This document shows, in pieces, positions 33,085 through 45,213 of a DNA stretch of 64,000 nucleotides. The position numbers and the translations under genes are program-made. The DNA comes from Fibrobacter sp. UWB16 (GTDB lineage Bacteria > Fibrobacterota > Fibrobacteria > Fibrobacterales > Fibrobacteraceae): positions 992,001-1,056,000 of the forward strand of contig NZ_OCMS01000001.1 of assembly GCF_900215325.1 (NCBI RefSeq). The letters run 5' to 3'. Positions within the stretch are counted from its first letter, which is position 1, and each line of letters begins with the position of its first letter. A model generated the notes under the pieces. The model searched no databases, was not told where the DNA came from, and saw only the letters and a program-made list of their open reading frames with translations.

Positions 33085-33651
33085 CTACTTACTAAACGCC
33101 TGTTTCTTGGCAACGGAGATATTCACGACGTTTTTCATCACGCCAGCCTCGCCGACCTTCTCCAAAGCCGATTTCAAAATGGCGGCCGCAGCAAGCGTAT
33201 CGTCCAAGGCACGGTGATGGTTAAAGTCTGGAAGCCCCAGCGATTCCGTGAGTTTGTGCAAACTGTAACTCGGCTGCCCCGGGAACACACGCCGCGAAAG
33301 CTTTACCGTACAAAGTCTCGCTGGGTTGAACTTAATACAGCAGCGCTTCAGTTCCGCAGTCATGTACTTGCAGTCGAACTGGACGTTGTGTGCTACAAAA
33401 ATGCGGTCTTGCAAAAGTGCTGCCACATGTTCTGCAATCGCTCCAAATTGCGGTTGTCCACTCACCATCTCGTCGGTGATGCCCGTCAGTTCGCGGACAA
33501 ACGGCGTAATCGGCGTTCCTGGATCTACAAGCGCGTGGTACGTTTCAACAATTTCGGAACCGTCCATCAGGGCGATTCCGATTTCCATTATACGATTATC
33601 TTCACCATGTCCGCCGGTCGTTTCGAGATCGACTACCGCAAATTTTAGCAA
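33085..33651 (-). CDS. DEDDh 3'-5' exonuclease (DnaQ/PolC epsilon-like)
   Basis: 188 residues forming one exonuclease domain. Visible motifs: Exo I FAVVDLETTGG (D8, E10), Exo II HNVQFD and Exo III HRALDD, the last giving the His of the DEDDh type. It could proofread or trim DNA or RNA 3' ends; a stand-alone DnaQ-like domain cannot be assigned a substrate from sequence. The start is TTG at 33651, six bases after the stop of the upstream gene, so the two are probably one operon. Confidence 0.88.
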   Translation of the reverse strand: MLKFAVVDLETTGGHGEDNRIMEIGIALMDGSEIVETYHALVDPGTPITPFVRELTGITDEMVSGQPQFGAIAEHVAALLQDRIFVAHNVQFDCKYMTAELKRCCIKFNPARLCTVKLSRRVFPGQPSYSLHKLTESLGLPDFNHHRALDDTLAAAAILKSALEKVGEAGVMKNVVNISVAKKQAFSK

Positions 33652-34242: not shown

Positions 34243-34396
34243 AAATACTCCAGTTTGACATCCCATCGTTTATTAATATATCATAAGAAATGGCGTTTTG
34301 ACGCAAAAAACAAAATAAATATGTTTTTTCATAGAATTTGTGTGACTTTAGTAACATTTTTACAACTTATATTTGCTCCGTAACTACATTTGCACC

Positions 34397-35320
34397 ATGT
34401 CTGGAAAAATTCGATTCGCACCGAGCCCCACGGGTTACCTTCACGAAGGCCACTTGCTTTCGGCTCTTTATGTGTGGGCGGCTGCCAAAAAATGGGATTT
34501 AAAAATCCATCTGAGAATCGAAGACCATGACCAGAGTCGCGCGCGCCCCGCTTACATCGCAGGCATCCGAGAAGATTTGGAGTGGCTTGGATTCAAGTAC
34601 GATTCCGAGAGCATACAAAGTGCCCGCGGACCTATCTACGAAGCCGCCCTCCAAAAACTTGTCGACAAGTCGCTCGTTTATCCGTGCTATTGCAGCCGCA
34701 AGCAACTCCTCGCCGAAAATCCGCAAAGCGAAACCGGTGAAATCATTTATCAGGGAAAATGCAAACATCTCGTCATCCTGAGCGAAGCAATTCGTCATCC
34801 TGAACGAAGTGAAGGATCCAGTGAAGTTTTGAGTAGCAACTCAGCGCCGCATAACCTTCGTTTTATCGTCCCCAATAAAGTTATCGACTGGCACGACCTG
34901 CGCCTCGGGGACTTTCACGAGAACCCAAAACTCCAGTGTGGCGACTTCCCGATCCGCGACCGCGACAACCAATGGACCTACCAGTTTGCCGTTTGTGTCG
35001 ACGACATCGACGAGCAAATCACACATATCGTCCGCGGAGAAGATATCCGCAACTCCACAGCCCGCCAAATAGCGCTCATGGAAGCACTTGGCCGCAAAGA
35101 ACGCGCTGTCTACCTGCACCACCCGCTCATCGTGGACGACAACAACAAGAAGCTTTCCAAACGCGAGCTCGCCCATAGCCTGCGCCAAGACAAAGAAGCC
35201 GGCATCACCCCCGAGATGCTCTTCGGACGAGTCTGCCACAAGGCGCATCTGACAGAATCGGACTCCCCGATTACCCTCATTGACGCTATATCCATAATTA
35301 TGGATCAAATTCCAACCTAG
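34397..35320 (+). CDS. gluQ: Glutamyl-Q tRNA(Asp) synthetase, carrying a translated repeat insertion
   Basis: Attaches glutamate to queuosine at position 34 of tRNA-Asp. 307 residues forming the catalytic half of a class I GluRS without the anticodon-binding domain. RFAPSPTGYLHEGHL is the HIGH region, IEDHDQSRARP and YPCYCSRKQLL with the later Cys of YQGKCKH form the zinc site, and KLSKRE is the KMSKS-like loop. Right after the zinc site about 22 residues (126-147, VILSEAIRHPERSEGSSEVL) come from a dispersed DNA repeat and have no place in the family. The frame is kept, so the enzyme may still work. ATG 34397 has no Shine-Dalgarno; TACATT lies 6 nt upstream. Confidence 0.88.
   Translation: MSGKIRFAPSPTGYLHEGHLLSALYVWAAAKKWDLKIHLRIEDHDQSRARPAYIAGIREDLEWLGFKYDSESIQSARGPIYEAALQKLVDKSLVYPCYCSRKQLLAENPQSETGEIIYQGKCKHLVILSEAIRHPERSEGSSEVLSSNSAPHNLRFIVPNKVIDWHDLRLGDFHENPKLQCGDFPIRDRDNQWTYQFAVCVDDIDEQITHIVRGEDIRNSTARQIALMEALGRKERAVYLHHPLIVDDNNKKLSKRELAHSLRQDKEAGITPEMLFGRVCHKAHLTESDSPITLIDAISIIMDQIPT
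34772..34840. repeat. Dispersed repeat inside gluQ, in frame
   Basis: GTCATCCTGAGCGAAGC is followed at once by GTCATCCTGAACGAAG and GGATCCAGTGAAG, i.e. one partial and one full unit of the intergenic repeat family found at 1276, 28918 and 39442. It encodes residues 126-148 of the gluQ product without stop codon or frameshift. Confidence 0.85.
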
Positions 35321-35349: not shown

Positions 35350-38300
35350 ATGGCATCAACGTCAGTGTCCGCAACCATTGAAAAAATCCGCGAAGAGGCA
35401 GCAGTCTTTGAAAGCAAAGACCGCTTGCTCAATTTTTCTCAAAAGAACAAGTTCCAGTCTCCACTGCTTTTAGGCAACGGCGACCAATTTTTTGAAGCAT
35501 GGCAAAAAGAGCCCACGCCGCGCGCACTTGCCGAGTTTTTCCCCGTATCCTCAAAATACGATGAAGAAAAGCAAGCAGCCGATCTTCAAAAATTCTGCAA
35601 TATTTTAAAGACAAAAGTCGAGGACTTTTGCAATCAGGATTTATACATGGCAACGGGATTCATCAAATGGGGCGAAAAGTCCCTTGCCCCGGCCATCCTC
35701 ATCCCGCTGACCTACGATGCCGAAAACGACACCGTCGCTATTTCCACACGTGCCCCTGTCGAAAACATTGCGCTTCCGATGCTTGATAAAAACATCAAGT
35801 TTCCAAAGGCTTTAGACTTTATCAAGAATGGCACTTTTGGAATTCAGAAATTTTTCGATACGCTCGAAAAAAGAATTGAGCCCAAAACAGATTGGAAGTT
35901 TACACGTAACGGCTATTGCATCACGTTCTACAGCACAAACAAGCTCCTCCTCAAAAAGAAGCTCACAAACGAATGCTGGGCAACAGCCAAAGCAGCAAAC
36001 AACGAATTTTTCATAGCAACGATTGGTAATGACGGATTTTTGCCAAAGCCATCGCTTTTTGAAGAAATCCCCTACGACCACGTTTATAACCCTGCCGATC
36101 ACTTTTTCCCCTACACAACCGATTCGCAGACGAACAAGGCTGTCATTGACGCTCTAGACGGAGATAGCGCCTACGCTATTCAAACGCTCCCAGGAAGCGA
36201 AAAATCTAAAGTCGCTGTCAACATCGTCGCAGACCTTATCCAACAAAAGAAAAAAGTCTGTGTAGTATGCCGCAGGGCCATCACCAAGTTCAACTTTGAA
36301 AACGCCTGGAACCCGCCGTTCCGTTCGTTCCAAGGTCCTGACCGCGATACGCTCAAGACATCGCTCAGCGACACCCGAGCAAAACTCGTCTCGTATTACG
36401 ATGCCGTCAATTTCCCGCTCAAGCCCAGTGGAGTGACGCTCACCGAGCTGCTTGATGAAATTGCAAAATTAAAATCGGTCAAGACAAAGTTTGCAAGCGA
36501 TCTTTTCAAGAACATCGAAGATGTGCGCTATAAAAAGTTCAAGTCCATGCAAACGAGCTTGGAACAAATAGAGCAACTATTCTTCAACGAAAACGGAATC
36601 GAAATTTATAACGCCTTCCAGGGAATCACGCTACCAGCTGTATCGCAAGATCGCAAGACCCAAATTGGCGAAGACCTGGAACAAGCTAAAGCATTAGTCG
36701 AAACCATCAAGCCGTTTGTCGAATGCATGAACAAATCCAAGCTTTACCTCGATGGGATTAAGCTTTCGGATGTTTTTGCACTCGCAAGTGTCTTCAAGAA
36801 AAACTTCGACAACGAGATGCCCGGTTTTGAAGACTGGGACCTGCATTCAAACGGTTGGATAGCCTATCAAGATGACCTGAACGATTTACCGAACGCAGGA
36901 GCTCGCTGGTCAAGCTACCGTCGCAAAGGTTCCGACATTTTCACGGACGAAGCCATCGATGCCAACGTCCTTGCTGCTCGTAAAGAATTTGAAGAAAGCT
37001 TGAGTTCTGCACTCAAGGCACTCTCGGATCATTACCGTAGGCCAAAGCGCATTTTGCTCAGTGTTTTCAAAGACCCTAAGAACATCACCTCCGATGACAT
37101 GCTTATCGAGCAAATCGACAAGCTTATCGAAATGCAGGAATACAGGCGCAAGTACAAAGACTCCTCTGTACTTGCCGCTCGTTTGTTCGGTAGAGACTGG
37201 AAATACGAAAAAACTGACTGGAAGGACTTGGCCGATAAAATCCGCCATTACTACGTCTTCCGAGCACGCATCAAGAATAGCGACCAGCACGACTACCTGC
37301 TTCAGCTTCTCGCCAAGTGGCACCTGTTCAGGCAGCACTTTGAAAAGCTGGACCGCATCTTGGTCAGCGCCGAAGAATTGCAGAAGAAGCTCCAAAGCAT
37401 AAGCAAATCGTTCAACTTGAGCACATCCATGGAAACGCAAAACGTGGATTCATGGCTCGAAAAGATTGAACGCTGGTCCGTATTGTGGAATGCACAGGAC
37501 ATTTACTTGCAGCTCCGCGAGCACATGGAAAACATCAGCGATTCGCCATGCGAAAACCTGGCCCAGTTCGTAAGCGATACCAAGAATGCGAACAAGGATA
37601 TTCCCATGGCATTTGCCCGCGCCTGGACCAACAGCCAAATGCAGGCCGCAACCGCCAAATGCCCTGAACTTTTCAGCCCGTCATCGAAGAATCGAAAGCA
37701 ACAGGGCAAGTTATTCCGAACGCAGCTAGATCAGTTCTGCAACGCAAATTTCCGTGCCGCGCACGAATGCATCAAGGATTCGCCAGCACAGCTCCAGATC
37801 GTTACGTTATCGCAAACATACGACTGTGATTTCGAGTCGTTTGACGCAACGCTATTTTTGGATGCCGATTGCATGACAATTGCCGAAGCCATGCCAGGGA
37901 TTTTAAAGACAAAGAAAGCTATTCTCTTTGGAAACCCATGCGCCCCGGCACTCGAAATGCTACCGACAGACGCATGCAACATGGATATTTCGTCGCAGTC
38001 CATTTTCTTCAAGGACAATGTACTTTCGGCTGCGCTCCGCAAGGGAATCCCGACTCGTGTGATTGGCTACACAGCGCAATACGCAGATCCGTCGTTATTC
38101 AGTTTTGCCAACAGCAAAATCTACAATAACGAAATGGCCCAGTTCCCGAATTCGACATTATCCACAAGCAAAATGCAGACGATTAAAACCGTCCGCGACA
38201 AAGTCTTGTCCATTGCAGAAAAAGCGGTTCAGCACGCGACAAAGAACCCAAGCCAGACTCTTGGAATTGTAGCATCGACCCAAAATCTTTGCAGTGAAAT

Positions 38301-39426
38301 CGAAAACGCCATTCAGGCGCTTTTGCAAAAGAATCCTAGCCTGGTTCCGTTCTTTACGCAAGGGAACCTTTCAAATAAATTCTACATCAAGACCATTGAA
38401 CGCGCTGTAGATCTTTACCGCGATGTCATCTTTGTCTGCGCCGATATCGACTGCATTTCAAGTGTTGCCAGCACCCGCAAGCTTTCAATTTGCACAACGC
38501 TTGCCAAACAAAGCCTTACGCTTTTCATCTCGGACGATGATGCGGACAAGCTTGCAACTGTGAAGCCCAATCTTTTCCAGGAATGGGTCAGTTCTCTAAA
38601 GAGCTCGAAATGTGCAACCGCGAACAACGACGCACCCGAATCCATTCTTGACACACAAATTAAGGAACTGTTTGTAAAGCAAAGCATTCCTTTCAAGGAC
38701 TGCATTTCGACAGGCAACATTCCGGTAGGTCCAGTCGTCATTGACGCAAACAACTCAAAGCGTTTCCTCGCCGTTATCGAAAGCGACTGCAGCAGAGCCC
38801 CTTACAAGGAATCCATCGAAGATCGCGAATACACACGCCCCAATGCACTCTCAAGATTCGGATGGAAGGTCCTTAACATGTGGCTCCCGCTTTGGAATAT
38901 TTCGAATGCCGACGAAAAGGAAAACCTCATCGCCACAATTGCGATCGAACAAAGCGTCGCACCGCCACCGCAAGAAGACATTCCTCTCGATGATGCTGAA
39001 ACAGGCATTTCTGTGAAAATCGAACCGTACTGCGTAAAGCACCCCGCCATTGCAGGGACGGAGAATCAATCCATCTCCGAGCTTCCAAAAGAGGCTCTCA
39101 TCGAGCAGCTGAAGTTCTACATCGACAGCGAATCGCCCATCCACGGCGAGGTCTTATTGCAAAGGATGCTGGAACTGCACCACGTCGAACGCACAAGCGC
39201 AAAGATCAGCGCCGCATTGAACGAAGCCATCAAGCAAGCACTGCACCAGAAGCTGTTCGTCAAAACGGGGCCGTTCTTCTATTCTCTCACAAACAAGAAC
39301 GTCGTGCTGCGCGACCGCTCCAAGAGGCCTGACAGCGAACGCAAGATATCATACATATCGCCCGAAGAACGCGCCCTCCTCAAGCTCGATGACCACAGCA
39401 TCAAGCAGATGCTCGGCGTGCTGTAA
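35350..39426 (+). CDS. Giant DUF4011/SF1-helicase-like protein with eroded ATPase motifs
   Basis: 1358 residues, no signal peptide. The layout follows DUF4011-type SF1 helicases. The N-terminal DUF4011-like region contains SKDRLLNFSQKN (family: LLDLS-x-RN-LLNF). The split helicase core spans about 255-1060. A restriction-endonuclease-like MTES_1575-type segment (AVIESDCSRAPY, then RFGWKVLNMWLPLW) lies at about 1141-1185. A DUF3320-like end (SESPIHGEVLLQRMLEL) starts at about 1260. Motifs are eroded: Walker A is TLPGSEKS (279-286) instead of GPPGTGKS, the DEASQ box is DADCM (838-842), GDPKQLPP is GNPCAPAL (861-868), and the TRA(R/K) box is TTLAK. The Lys of Walker A survives. It is most likely a non-hydrolysing relative kept for binding, since the reading frame of 4 kb is intact. 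It stands alone after gluQ. Confidence 0.75.
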   Translation: MASTSVSATIEKIREEAAVFESKDRLLNFSQKNKFQSPLLLGNGDQFFEAWQKEPTPRALAEFFPVSSKYDEEKQAADLQKFCNILKTKVEDFCNQDLYMATGFIKWGEKSLAPAILIPLTYDAENDTVAISTRAPVENIALPMLDKNIKFPKALDFIKNGTFGIQKFFDTLEKRIEPKTDWKFTRNGYCITFYSTNKLLLKKKLTNECWATAKAANNEFFIATIGNDGFLPKPSLFEEIPYDHVYNPADHFFPYTTDSQTNKAVIDALDGDSAYAIQTLPGSEKSKVAVNIVADLIQQKKKVCVVCRRAITKFNFENAWNPPFRSFQGPDRDTLKTSLSDTRAKLVSYYDAVNFPLKPSGVTLTELLDEIAKLKSVKTKFASDLFKNIEDVRYKKFKSMQTSLEQIEQLFFNENGIEIYNAFQGITLPAVSQDRKTQIGEDLEQAKALVETIKPFVECMNKSKLYLDGIKLSDVFALASVFKKNFDNEMPGFEDWDLHSNGWIAYQDDLNDLPNAGARWSSYRRKGSDIFTDEAIDANVLAARKEFEESLSSALKALSDHYRRPKRILLSVFKDPKNITSDDMLIEQIDKLIEMQEYRRKYKDSSVLAARLFGRDWKYEKTDWKDLADKIRHYYVFRARIKNSDQHDYLLQLLAKWHLFRQHFEKLDRILVSAEELQKKLQSISKSFNLSTSMETQNVDSWLEKIERWSVLWNAQDIYLQLREHMENISDSPCENLAQFVSDTKNANKDIPMAFARAWTNSQMQAATAKCPELFSPSSKNRKQQGKLFRTQLDQFCNANFRAAHECIKDSPAQLQIVTLSQTYDCDFESFDATLFLDADCMTIAEAMPGILKTKKAILFGNPCAPALEMLPTDACNMDISSQSIFFKDNVLSAALRKGIPTRVIGYTAQYADPSLFSFANSKIYNNEMAQFPNSTLSTSKMQTIKTVRDKVLSIAEKAVQHATKNPSQTLGIVASTQNLCSEIENAIQALLQKNPSLVPFFTQGNLSNKFYIKTIERAVDLYRDVIFVCADIDCISSVASTRKLSICTTLAKQSLTLFISDDDADKLATVKPNLFQEWVSSLKSSKCATANNDAPESILDTQIKELFVKQSIPFKDCISTGNIPVGPVVIDANNSKRFLAVIESDCSRAPYKESIEDREYTRPNALSRFGWKVLNMWLPLWNISNADEKENLIATIAIEQSVAPPPQEDIPLDDAETGISVKIEPYCVKHPAIAGTENQSISELPKEALIEQLKFYIDSESPIHGEVLLQRMLELHHVERTSAKISAALNEAIKQALHQKLFVKTGPFFYSLTNKNVVLRDRSKRPDSERKISYISPEERALLKLDDHSIKQMLGVL

Positions 39427-39503: not shown

Positions 39504-39529
39504 AAGAGCAGGCTATTGCCTGCTCTTTG
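39504..39529. terminator. Terminator between convergent genes
   Basis: AAGAGCAGGC and GCCTGCTCTT form a perfect stem with a TATT loop. It lies between the ends of the helicase-like gene (39426) and the SPOR gene (39553). Confidence 0.75.
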
Positions 39530-40362: not shown

Positions 40363-43300
40363 TTACTTTTTTCTCTTGGAGCGGACACCCCACATTTCAG
40401 ACTTTTCGTGCTTGTACTTCTTATCGACGTTACCAAGCTTAACGAATGTCTTGATCTTGGAGATGAATGCGCCAGTACCCACAAAGCGAGACTTTGCATT
40501 CTTGTTGTTCCAAACAACGAAGAAGCTTCTACGGACGTCAACGCAGTTCTTACCTTCGAAGTAGTATCTGCCGTGTTCGACCTTGTTCTTTTCGTCATCG
40601 CAGTAGATGCGCTTGTGTTCGCTCAAGACATGAGCACCCAAGTTCGAATAAATGTGAAGATCGTAATCGAGGTACGTATCTTCCTTCTTGACCTTAGCGT
40701 ACTTATCCTTAGAGAGTAATGAGCCCATATCGCTCATGATGAACCAGCCGTTCGGAGCAAAGCCATACTTAGCCATAGCCGGGTCGACAGAGCTCTTAGC
40801 AATCATAGCTTCCATGAACTGACCTTCATCCTTGTTTGCATCAAACGGGATGACTTCGGTCGGCGGGAGCGCAGCGGCTTCAGCCATAGTCAGCGGGACG
40901 AAACCGATACCATCTTTACGAATTCTCTTGACATAGGAATCCACGTCACCCGTAACCTTGACCCACGGAGACGGCAGACGAACTGTTGCATCGTAAGCCG
41001 GAGCGGTATTCCAGCCAACGGTAGCGTCATCAGCAGACCAAGCGTTACGGAGAGAATCAGCAATCTTATAATCGGACTGGTCTTCCATAAAGCCAATGCC
41101 ATCAAGGCCTCTGAAGTGGACATAGTCATTAGCCTGTGGGAAGGTCGTAGACTTGCTGAAGAGCAATGTAAACGTTTCATCAATTTTGTCTGCAAGCGTA
41201 ATGTTCGGTGCAAGCGGAATGAAGTCTACATACTGGGAGTTCTTACCATTGTTGATGTAGTAAGAGAACACATTGTTACCCTCGAGAGAGCCCTGAGCGG
41301 TCTTCTGGACCTTTTCAGAGAACTTGAGCTTCAACTGAGCCAAATCACCGGCAGTACCGTCAGCAATCATTTCAGCGGAGAGGATGATCGGAGCAATACG
41401 GTCATAAATGATGCCTTCATAGTTGGCAGTCACAGGATCCGTTGCGCAAGTCTTACCGTCGTCGTTAAACTTCGGACAGTAGGTAGCCCAGGACTTGACC
41501 GTACCCGTACCAGTCGTCTTCACATTCTTAGAAAGCGTGATATGTTCGCCTTTTTCATCAACGCGGCTAAGAGCAATTCTATTCAAGCAGACATCTTCAT
41601 CAAGACCGAATGCTGCACCGCAAGAAACACCTCTTGCAATATCAGTTTCATCAAAGACTACAGAATCCTTCTTATCGTCGCTCCAATAGACGACAATCTT
41701 ATTCGGGAGAGAGTCCCTGTTGAACTGACGATGGTAGTAAACAACGAGGGAGTCGCCCTTACCATCAAGATACTTCCCAGTCTTTGACAAGAGAGTGTCC
41801 GGCATATTCAATTCAACCTGAGACGGAACACCGTACACGTCAAAGATATCAGCAAACTGCGGAGTCGGAACCGGCGGTTCCTGGAACTGCATGTTCGTGT
41901 AAGAAGCAGACATCAACTTTGTGCTCGGGCCAAGAATCGTAAACGTTGCAGTACCATTACCAGCGTCATCTCTTAAGTAGACCACAGAAGAACGGATGGT
42001 AAATGTAGCACGGCCATTCACGACTTCGGCAGCAGAAATGAGATCGACACCGGTAGAAGACAAGGAAGCACTTCTGAGCAACGAGAAGTTACAATCCGTG
42101 CAAATTGTCGTGTCCGGGTTGAGAGCGACAACGTAGAAGTTGTAAGACTGACCCTTCATACGAATGTAGCTATCAGCATCCTTCGTGATGACCTTGAATG
42201 TAGAGTCAGAATCCACAAACTTGAGCGTCGGCACAAAGAAGTCGACATTTGCAGTACGAGTAGTACCAGAAACACTGATGCTAACAGTTTCGACAGCAGA
42301 CTTCATTTCATCGAACGGAATCGTCACGTAAATCGTATCGACACCGCCATCGCCAATCTTGCGGTTGTCCGTGGGCTTAAACGGAGAGAGAACGCCATTC
42401 TTCAATTCATAGAAGAGGGCCTTATCATTGGTTACGGTCAGCGTGTAAGGAGAACCCTTAGCAGAAGAAAGTTCGAGATTCTTGTCGCAAGCGCCTTCAC
42501 CAGTGCAAGGATCGCTGATAGCGGCGATGTAAAGCGGAACCATCTGGTTGAGAGCGATAGAACCATCGTCAGCCGGATTGGAAGCCATAGCGCGGCCCTT
42601 GAAATCAAAGCCCGGAATATGGTTATCATTGTCATCCACGAATTCTGCACTGCGATCAGCAATACCAATAGAACCCGAAATCTTAACTTCGATAGCTCTG
42701 GTCTGGTTGCCGATATGGATCAAAAGATAGAACTGACCGCCCTTGGCAAAGTAGTTCTTCAAGATATCCTTGTTGATAATCGGTTCACCCGGCTTAGAGA
42801 CATCGATACCACCACCATACTGCTTGGGAGAAGTCTTAAAGTCTTCGGCAGAGACAACCACATCAGCGGGATTAGCACCAGTCTTATCCTTCGTGAATTC
42901 GTAGGTAATCGGCTGCTTAATGTTGGAACCGCAAGTAGAGTCTGCAACAGAGGCGCTCAAAGCAGCAGCGCAAGAACCGTCACCAGATTCGGTATAGCAG
43001 ATGAGGTAATGGTTGTTACCATTTTCAAAGTAGTCAGCCTTATCCTGGTTTGCAAGCGGGTCGATACCGTTCTTCTGTTCGATGAACATGTTCGTCTTGA
43101 TATGGACGTTACTCATCGTCGTACGACGGTCGCAGAAGAAGATGTCAATCGGATAAGTATCGCCAACCTTAGCATCCGGCATGAACTTGTCCAAGTCTAC
43201 GAAGCCCGGAGCAGCCAAGTGCGTACCACCGAGGTCCACAGCCAACTTGTTATTGATAAATACCCAAATATCGTCGTCACCACGGAAGCTGAACTTCAAG

Positions 43301-45213
43301 TTCTTCTTGAAGCGGAACGTAGCGTGAGATTCGAAGCAGAAATGCTGGTTACGACCGGCCTTGGTGAAGCCTTTACCGTCATCACCATTACCGCCTTCCG
43401 TAGAAGTCCAACGATGCTTACCCGAATTCTGTCCCTGAGCATTCGGTTTTGCAATGTTTTCTGTACCTTCATCATATAAAGCAGGCCAAGTATCCGGAAT
43501 AGCACCAGCCATCCATTCGCAGGACCAGCCCCAGCCATCGCCACCCCAGGTGACGTTCTTGCCATAGGACTTCTTGAATGCAGCCTGAATTCTTTCACCA
43601 TCTTCGGTCGGAGTGCCATCCTTACTGAATTCAGAACCAGCAGAGAAGAGGCCTTCGCAGTCAATGCCGCCTTCCCAGCCGCCACCATTACAGATAAGGT
43701 CGCTCAGAGGAACACCTTGTTCTTCATGAAGGGTACGGAGGCCCATCGGAGTCTGAGAAGTCTTATTGTTCGGATCATCCGGGCAGAAGAATGTCGGGCC
43801 TTCAGCCTTGCGCTTCGTTTCGGCAGCAGCCAAACGAGGAGAAATCATCATCGTTGCATCCGGTTCTTGTTCAGCCGGATAGAAACCGCCAGTAACCGGA
43901 GCACCGGGGCTCTTGTAATTGTCAGATTCGAATTCAAACTTGCCATCTTTAGCCTGGCTAAAGGCCATATTGAAGCAGTACTGTTCGTTCACACCTTCGG
44001 TGTAGTTAAACATAGCCTTGAAAGCGGCTTCGGCCTGAGCACCGAAGCACTGCTTACCCTTTGCGGTAAGGACCATGTACTTTTTCTTAGTCGTCGGGTC
44101 AGTGGCGAGAGTGCTTTCGACCATGCCCTTAGTCACGCCAACGCACGGAACAACAGCTTCACCCGTGGAATTGACCGGGAACTTTGCTGTATTGTAGTAG
44201 CAAGCATTGTACTTGACCTTCTCAGTACCATCAATAGCCTGAGACCAGTTCGGAGCGCAAGTAAATGCACCATGCAAAGAAGCGTCAGTATCATAAATAA
44301 TAGCAGCCAAATCGTAACCGCAAGTACCTTGTGCGGCCGGGCGCGTTGTAGACCAACCCGGATTGGACTTGTTGGCAAGCTTTTTAGCTTCTTCTTCGTC
44401 AGCAACAAAGTAGACAGCGCCCTGGAAGTCCTCAGGCGGAACGAAAGCTTCCATAAAGTCATACAAAGGAATCGGCGTTGCAGTCGGGTTTTCTTCCCAA
44501 GCACCATTCTGACCTATAGCATCTGCTCTATCTTCATCGTCATCGCGATGAATGAGGACGCTCTTCGGAATGTCTTCATCGATATAGCGTCTGTAATACC
44601 ATCCGCAGTTATCGGCATCGTTGTACATCTTTGTGTCAACAGCCTTGCCGTCGGCAGCCACTTCATAGAGCATCGGTTCTGCGCTCTTCCATGTCGTATT
44701 GTTCGGCAAGAAGACGTAGAAATCTCTAATGACCGGCATAGAGTTTTTCGTATAAATAGCCCCTTCTTTCTTCACGTCCGGATGGGCCATAATCCAGAAA
44801 TCCATGCCATCGTCTTTACCAATAGAGCTGCAGGTAAAGCCTACGCTATTGGCATCGCCATTCAGGCCAGTGATAATGCCCGATGTCGTCACGCATCTGC
44901 TGTTATTGCAAGCACTGTTGTTGACGTCGTTGATGAAGAACGTAGCACCGTCATTCGTCTTTGTGGCGCCAAGGTCAATCATAGACCAGCCATCAGCATC
45001 AGCCTTAGGGAATGCTACACCCTGACCGCCAATCATCAAATATGCGGTAGTCCAACCATCAGGAAGTTGGAAGTGAATCTTGGGTGAACAAACGTCATTG
45101 CCCATCTGTGATTTTTTCAAGTCTGCCCATGCTCCTGACACTCCAACGAGAAGCAGACTCATCATCAATGCAAAACTTTGCAAAGCGTTATAACGTATTT
45201 TCATATTTTTCAT
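40363..45213 (-). CDS. Giant secreted fibro-slime protein (1616 aa)
   Basis: Surface protein with a signal peptide (about 1-30, ending SGAWA) and a Cys-rich N-terminal half of about 600 residues. The fibro-slime domain lies near residues 625-710 (FRGDDDIWVFINNKLAVDLG, then FVDLDKFMPDAKVGDTYPID), followed by Ig-like beta domains. The final module of about 70 residues (SRFVGTGAFISKIKTF, then MWGVRSKRKK) is shared with the 3338-7087 protein. GDDDxWVFINN is the PA14-like Ca-binding signature. It is among the largest genes here and has its own terminator. Probably part of the slime or adhesion layer used to stick to plant fibre; the ligand is unknown. Confidence 0.88.
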   Translation of the reverse strand: MKNMKIRYNALQSFALMMSLLLVGVSGAWADLKKSQMGNDVCSPKIHFQLPDGWTTAYLMIGGQGVAFPKADADGWSMIDLGATKTNDGATFFINDVNNSACNNSRCVTTSGIITGLNGDANSVGFTCSSIGKDDGMDFWIMAHPDVKKEGAIYTKNSMPVIRDFYVFLPNNTTWKSAEPMLYEVAADGKAVDTKMYNDADNCGWYYRRYIDEDIPKSVLIHRDDDEDRADAIGQNGAWEENPTATPIPLYDFMEAFVPPEDFQGAVYFVADEEEAKKLANKSNPGWSTTRPAAQGTCGYDLAAIIYDTDASLHGAFTCAPNWSQAIDGTEKVKYNACYYNTAKFPVNSTGEAVVPCVGVTKGMVESTLATDPTTKKKYMVLTAKGKQCFGAQAEAAFKAMFNYTEGVNEQYCFNMAFSQAKDGKFEFESDNYKSPGAPVTGGFYPAEQEPDATMMISPRLAAAETKRKAEGPTFFCPDDPNNKTSQTPMGLRTLHEEQGVPLSDLICNGGGWEGGIDCEGLFSAGSEFSKDGTPTEDGERIQAAFKKSYGKNVTWGGDGWGWSCEWMAGAIPDTWPALYDEGTENIAKPNAQGQNSGKHRWTSTEGGNGDDGKGFTKAGRNQHFCFESHATFRFKKNLKFSFRGDDDIWVFINNKLAVDLGGTHLAAPGFVDLDKFMPDAKVGDTYPIDIFFCDRRTTMSNVHIKTNMFIEQKNGIDPLANQDKADYFENGNNHYLICYTESGDGSCAAALSASVADSTCGSNIKQPITYEFTKDKTGANPADVVVSAEDFKTSPKQYGGGIDVSKPGEPIINKDILKNYFAKGGQFYLLIHIGNQTRAIEVKISGSIGIADRSAEFVDDNDNHIPGFDFKGRAMASNPADDGSIALNQMVPLYIAAISDPCTGEGACDKNLELSSAKGSPYTLTVTNDKALFYELKNGVLSPFKPTDNRKIGDGGVDTIYVTIPFDEMKSAVETVSISVSGTTRTANVDFFVPTLKFVDSDSTFKVITKDADSYIRMKGQSYNFYVVALNPDTTICTDCNFSLLRSASLSSTGVDLISAAEVVNGRATFTIRSSVVYLRDDAGNGTATFTILGPSTKLMSASYTNMQFQEPPVPTPQFADIFDVYGVPSQVELNMPDTLLSKTGKYLDGKGDSLVVYYHRQFNRDSLPNKIVVYWSDDKKDSVVFDETDIARGVSCGAAFGLDEDVCLNRIALSRVDEKGEHITLSKNVKTTGTGTVKSWATYCPKFNDDGKTCATDPVTANYEGIIYDRIAPIILSAEMIADGTAGDLAQLKLKFSEKVQKTAQGSLEGNNVFSYYINNGKNSQYVDFIPLAPNITLADKIDETFTLLFSKSTTFPQANDYVHFRGLDGIGFMEDQSDYKIADSLRNAWSADDATVGWNTAPAYDATVRLPSPWVKVTGDVDSYVKRIRKDGIGFVPLTMAEAAALPPTEVIPFDANKDEGQFMEAMIAKSSVDPAMAKYGFAPNGWFIMSDMGSLLSKDKYAKVKKEDTYLDYDLHIYSNLGAHVLSEHKRIYCDDEKNKVEHGRYYFEGKNCVDVRRSFFVVWNNKNAKSRFVGTGAFISKIKTFVKLGNVDKKYKHEKSEMWGVRSKRKK

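Follow-up and report, generated by a model that had tools for sequence, protein, structure and literature searches.

The gene that lies directly downstream from gluQRS in Fibrobacter sp. UWB16 encodes a protein with the architecture of known defence-type helicase-nucleases, in a new and fixed form that is predicted to be catalytically dead. We analysed a window of 64,000 nucleotides of this genome (contig NZ_OCMS01000001.1, positions 992,001 to 1,056,000 of the forward strand; coordinates below are those of the window). A preliminary description had pointed out an open frame of 1358 residues, and we found it with exactly the reported coordinates (35350-39426, forward strand) and an ATG start; every peptide quoted in that description is present in the translation. 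The protein, which we refer to as the pseudo-helicase-nuclease or simply pseudo-helicase (Table 1), has a pI of 6.3 and no overall positive charge.

Profile searches connect this protein to known families. The PADLOC profile PDC-S37 (PDLC05009) matches it with 355.5 bits (E = 1.7e-106) in three stretches, the best being residues 331-806, and the homology covers most of its length. NCBIfam ProA (NF058533) gives 216.4 bits (E = 5.6e-64), far under the curated cut-off of 1500 bits, which the best orthologue score (380.4 bits) does not reach either, and NCBIfam Hhe (NF042953; PADLOC PDLC02194) gives 56.9 bits against a cut-off of 2000. In Pfam, MTES_1575, DUF4011 and DUF3320 are detected in the right order, all three below the gathering cut-off. 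Since an orthologue from another genus (L070) exceeds the cut-offs for DUF4011 and MTES_1575, we consider these identities real, though remote, and the same holds for the DUF4011/SF1 helicase/MTES_1575/DUF3320 architecture proposed in the preliminary description. The RecC/AddB families PF04257 and PF12705 had no Pfam match in the window protein, a PDB sequence search with it gave no match, and a search of a limited collection of literature found no paper on PDC-S37 or on DUF4011 in Fibrobacter. In Pseudomonas aeruginosa, a DUF4011 gene has been reported as a core flank of a defence hotspot (PMC10250203).

PDC-S37 and ProA proteins share with the Fibrobacteraceae protein the order of DUF4011, SF1B helicase with a long helical insert, MTES_1575 REase and DUF3320. 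However, the relatives of this kind that we examined keep all helicase motifs, are 1537-1986 aa long and in several cases reside on plasmids, whereas the Fibrobacteraceae protein lacks the catalytic motifs, is shorter and is encoded by a core gene. With Hhe, it is weakly homologous in the helicase 2A, REase and DUF3320 parts, but again without the catalytic residues.

Table 1. Features of the pseudo-helicase-nuclease gene and its surroundings in the window
Feature	Coordinates	Strand	Remarks
Sigma-70-like promoter TTGACA-18-TATCAT before gluQRS	34255..34284	+	consensus match only
gluQRS (tRNA-Asp glutamyl-queuosine synthetase)	34373..35320	+	29-bp gap to pseudo-helicase
Pseudo-helicase-nuclease gene	35350..39426	+	1358 aa, single copy per genome
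DUF4011-like N-terminal region, ~residues 1-235	35350..36054	+	weak Pfam match 66-129
Ruined Walker A, residues 279-286, TLPGSEKS vs GPPGTGKS	36184..36207	+	alignment, 51 orthologues
Long helical insert, ~residues 331-770	36340..37659	+	part closest to PDC-S37
Ruined motif II, residues 836-841, FLDADC vs FDEASQ	37855..37872	+	D to L837, E to D838
Ruined motif III, residues 861-868, GNPCAPAL	37930..37953	+	Gln 0/51
Ruined motif V, residues 1018-1025, RAVDLYRD vs VQGDERD	38401..38424	+	Gln 0/51
Ruined motif VI, residues 1049-1053, TTLAK vs (T/S)RA(K/R)	38494..38508	+	Arg 0/51
MTES_1575 REase-like domain, ~residues 1108-1200	38671..38949	+	E1144/D1146 kept; first Asp and His lost
DUF3320-like C-terminal module, ~residues 1241-1358	39070..39423	+	most conserved part
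Terminator-like hairpin, 10 pairs, 3' of pseudo-helicase	39504..39527	.	scored on - strand; consensus match only

The extent of the catalytic loss is evident from an alignment of 51 orthologues, belonging to seven Fibrobacteraceae genera, with eight canonical relatives, three of them from Fibrobacter genomes and five from plasmids of other phyla. All eight canonical relatives retain GPPGTGKS, DEASQ, GDxxQ(L/M)PP, HYRS, VQGDERD and (T/S)R(A/S)(K/R). Among the orthologues, in contrast, the first and sixth Gly of Walker A are never present (0/51), the Ser/Thr after the Lys survives in three, and a workable Walker A is missing from all 51. The Asp of motif II is missing throughout (Leu in 50/51) and its Glu is replaced by Asp in 51/51; the Gln of motifs III and V and the Arg of motif VI are absent from all 51, and the Arg of motif IV is kept once. 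Neither the diagnostic residues of SF1B motifs I, II, III, V and VI (0/51) nor the active helicase motifs that the canonical PDC-S37-type relatives have (8/8) are found. In the window protein, HYRS of motif IV and VQGDERD of motif V are gone and motif Ib (LELHSxKANK) is deleted; the latter is also absent from the orthologues inspected. The preliminary description, which had listed eroded helicase boxes, was thus correct and even understated the losses, as these extend to motifs Ib, IV and V. Its reading of DADCM in place of DEASQ captured the erosion but was off by one residue: when aligned with intact relatives, VIF-D-E-A-S-Q pairs with LFL-D-A-D-C, which puts Leu837 in the position of the Mg-binding Asp and Asp838 in that of the catalytic Glu.

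With almost no nucleotide-handling residues left, the window protein is very unlikely to work as a motor, and from the residue losses we infer that it is without catalysis. The loss is old and fixed, given that all 51 orthologues are without catalytic residues while the eight canonical relatives keep the helicase ones. Orthologues with intact motifs, which according to the preliminary description would have revealed a copy that is simply decaying, are not found among the 51. In a midpoint-rooted FastTree phylogeny, a single long branch (1.49 substitutions per site; split support 0.38) separates the orthologues from the canonical proteins. A single inactivation preceding the radiation of the family would fit this topology.

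Although the motifs are ruined, the fold is predicted to persist. The AlphaFold2 model of residues 1-1200, built with 25 sequences, has a mean pLDDT of 87.7 and a pTM of 0.73, and its best Foldseek matches in the PDB are Aquarius, Senataxin, Dna2, Upf1, Sen1 and IGHMBP2 (E from 3.6e-10 to about 1e-7), with AddAB as a lower-ranked fold match only. According to this model, the core is an Upf1-like SF1B one, with two RecA-like domains; the preliminary description had suggested comparing a predicted structure with SF1 helicases, the absence of an SF1 core speaking against it, and the core is there in the prediction. The likeness to the Upf1-like helicases is one of predicted fold: identity to them is 8-16%, and the Fibrobacteraceae protein has lost all motifs. 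With a 440-residue insert and extra domains, low TM-scores over the full length are to be expected, and they amount to about 0.2-0.3 by query. For the C-terminal model (residues 1095-1358, pLDDT 77.8), the fold matches, including winged helices and Vsr-like endonucleases, were all non-significant.

The reading that we favour, and consider rather probable, is that of a domesticated pseudo-helicase-nuclease that would serve, independently of ATP, as a nucleic-acid-binding or scaffold subunit, in analogy to RecC/AddB but not as a member of that group. The Fibrobacteraceae ancestor would have fixed, directly 3' of gluQRS, an inactivated DUF4011/SF1B-helicase/REase/DUF3320 copy of the PDC-S37, ProA or Hhe kind. 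The whole fold would have been retained, whereas part of the nuclease site and almost all residues serving ATP binding, hydrolysis and coupling would have been lost. Nucleic acid, an active partner, or both would then be recognised by the former helicase groove together with the helical insert and the winged-helix-like module at the C-terminus, much as the dead helicase domains of RecC/AddB act as a scanner. Indeed, the dead SF1 domains of RecC and AddB, in RecBCD and AddAB, serve as ssDNA scanners (PMC4824097). The likeness, an SF1 fold without motifs, is by analogy; RecC and AddB are SF1A-type and have no family in common with the Fibrobacteraceae protein. We also considered the pseudo-helicase as a replacement for RecC and rejected it: the genome has its own recCBD cluster elsewhere, with recC (PF04257), a recB-like gene and one of recD size next to each other on contig C4.

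The predicted fold points to nucleic-acid binding, against which the lack of an overall positive charge can be held, and the distribution of the gene to a household role outside defence. This would probably be a non-enzymatic job, not described so far, and the structural partner suggested in the preliminary description is a plausible form of it. A very large helicase-nuclease would thus have undergone a near-total loss of catalytic residues once and then become a core gene of a whole bacterial family, which suggests that a protein of the defence type can be tamed and put to household use. It would also provide a second independent test case, besides RecC/AddB, for the use of a dead SF1 helicase fold.

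Directly upstream of the pseudo-helicase and on the same strand, gluQRS is found in 26 of 27 loci, from six genera, mostly 10-70 bp apart or overlapping, and this spacing makes it likely that the two genes form one operon. Further neighbours are partly conserved and comprise a SPOR protein, a fibro-slime/PA14 protein and a DnaQ-like exonuclease. On the minus strand of the window, we observed a stand-alone exonuclease of the DnaQ kind, similar to the N-terminal portion of DinG-type proteins (33085-33651), with related genes in many of the compared loci, a fibro-slime type protein of 1616 aa that contains a PA14 domain (40363-45213) and is a conserved neighbour in 17/27 loci, and a secreted-looking 551-aa protein with collagen-like repeats (PF01391; 31323-32978).

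The persistence of gluQRS at a small or zero gap, while other neighbours change, raises the possibility that the pseudo-helicase is a cofactor of GluQRS and queuosine metabolism, an RNA- or tRNA-binding protein through which tRNA-Asp (or ribosomes) would be presented to GluQRS, remodelled for it or protected. The Upf1-like SF1B matches in the PDB, which are mostly RNA helicases, also argue for it. We regard this explanation as doubtful. The adjacency could be a frozen gene order, and one genome that is 99% complete (G160) has the pseudo-helicase without a detectable GluQRS, whereas G165 and genus g17 have GluQRS and no pseudo-helicase. Co-occurrence of the two proteins, tested in its strict form, is thus imperfect. 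The link to GluQRS and tRNA is therefore a lead only. Just as tentative is the broader idea that an anti-phage-type helicase-nuclease became a dead housekeeping nucleic-acid binder working with GluQRS in one operon, and thus a novel type of factor for tRNA or translation, built on a defence protein fold.

In the rumen, Fibrobacter are major degraders of fibre. By direct protein search, the gene was detected in 37/37 genomes of the genus that were examined, at 41-82% identity and in full length save for one copy truncated at a contig end. The PDC-S37 profile has a match in 78 of 80 genomes of the genus; the two misses are genomes 65% and 71% complete, which also are without a GluQRS-sized gene. 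Other Fibrobacteraceae carry it at about 28-36% identity (g18, g19, including F. intestinalis, g20, g22, g23 and two of three g24), and it was not found in genera g15, g16, g17 and g21. A scan of 84,980 species, which was pattern-based and could miss remote forms, yielded 66 loci, all in Fibrobacteraceae. No relative was found on viral contigs, and these two results led us to reject horizontal transfer or a phage source within the family. The pseudo-helicase and GluQRS trees have 13 strongly supported splits in common and 3 conflicting pairs, and pairwise identities are correlated (r 0.85). Synteny, tree agreement and correlated identities thus indicate a vertically inherited core gene.

Given that the nearest named profiles are defence families, the protein could in principle still serve defence, as a ProA/PDC-S37 derivative that, without catalysis, acts as a sensor or decoy and is set off by phage proteins directed against helicase-nucleases. 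We find this unlikely. Unlike patchy defence genes, the pseudo-helicase is a single-copy gene of conserved synteny, present in nearly all genomes of the genus, vertically inherited, constrained, with low dN/dS, and located outside defence islands; moreover, bona fide PDC-S37 occurs separately in three of the genomes. The decoy suggested in the preliminary description is thus not supported. Profile-based tools could nonetheless list this core and probably non-defence Fibrobacter gene as anti-phage. The bona fide PDC-S37 proteins have intact motifs and are accessory, beside the dead core copy (L038/L040 in G033, L041/L084 in G133, L039/L042 in G006).

Some catalytic positions are still occupied. 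The Lys of Walker A is kept in 38/51 orthologues, and the remaining members of the clade have W, A, L, N, G, R or V. In one Fibrobacter subclade (L032-L036, from G028, G022, G017, G016 and G002), it is Trp (LPGTDW). In the REase-like site, the first Asp and the His are missing from all 51, and E1144 and D1146 are kept in 50/50; in the window protein, the upstream Asp is lost (IDLAV to PVGPV, G1127), together with the His of DG..YH. The endonuclease-like segment seen in the preliminary description therefore has its E-x-D pair, but not the full PD-(D/E)XK/Vsr-like set of the MTES_1575 site (first Asp, E-x-D and His). The Lys may allow weak nucleotide binding, and the invariant acidic pair some metal binding or nuclease activity. 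It is improbable, however, that Lys285, D838, G861, P866, R1024-D1025 and E1144/D1146 make up a divergent NTPase or nuclease site. Although D838 is invariant (51/51), like the REase pair, and the Lys is frequent, both Walker A Gly, the motif II Asp, the Gln of motifs III and V, the motif VI Arg and the first REase Asp were jointly lost, and the Lys itself varies within the clade.

Estimates of dN/dS were restricted to close pairs, as dS was otherwise saturated. The values (0.03-0.17) are far lower than the value near 1 that the preliminary description had named as contrary evidence, and they are low alike in the DUF4011, RecA1, insert, RecA2, REase and C-terminal parts, the linker 1201-1240 being the only part with looser constraint. 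In 9/13 pairs, dN/dS of the pseudo-helicase does not exceed that of the neighbouring gluQRS. Family-wide, the strongest conservation is not at the former ATP site but in the DUF3320-like module (mean top-residue frequency 0.68; 20/118 residues invariant; low dN/dS in close pairs) and in the core of the helical insert (21 invariant residues within 486-660). With frames intact, one copy per genome and such low dN/dS, the pseudo-helicase is not decaying. The SF1B fold, the lack of intact motifs in all 51 orthologues and the low dN/dS support the maintained non-ATPase, rather than pseudogene, of the preliminary description. A functionless relic in slow decay, of which the G028 copy might be taken as a sign, is practically out of the question, as it is already contradicted by dN/dS and by full-length frames in seven genera, except for that copy and the one at a contig end. 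In G028 (L032, a MAG), a single in-frame TAG lies at about residue 95 of an otherwise intact copy, either a sequencing error or a recent null. The pseudo-helicase is not especially slow-evolving, since its mean identity within the genus is 53% versus 69% for GluQRS.
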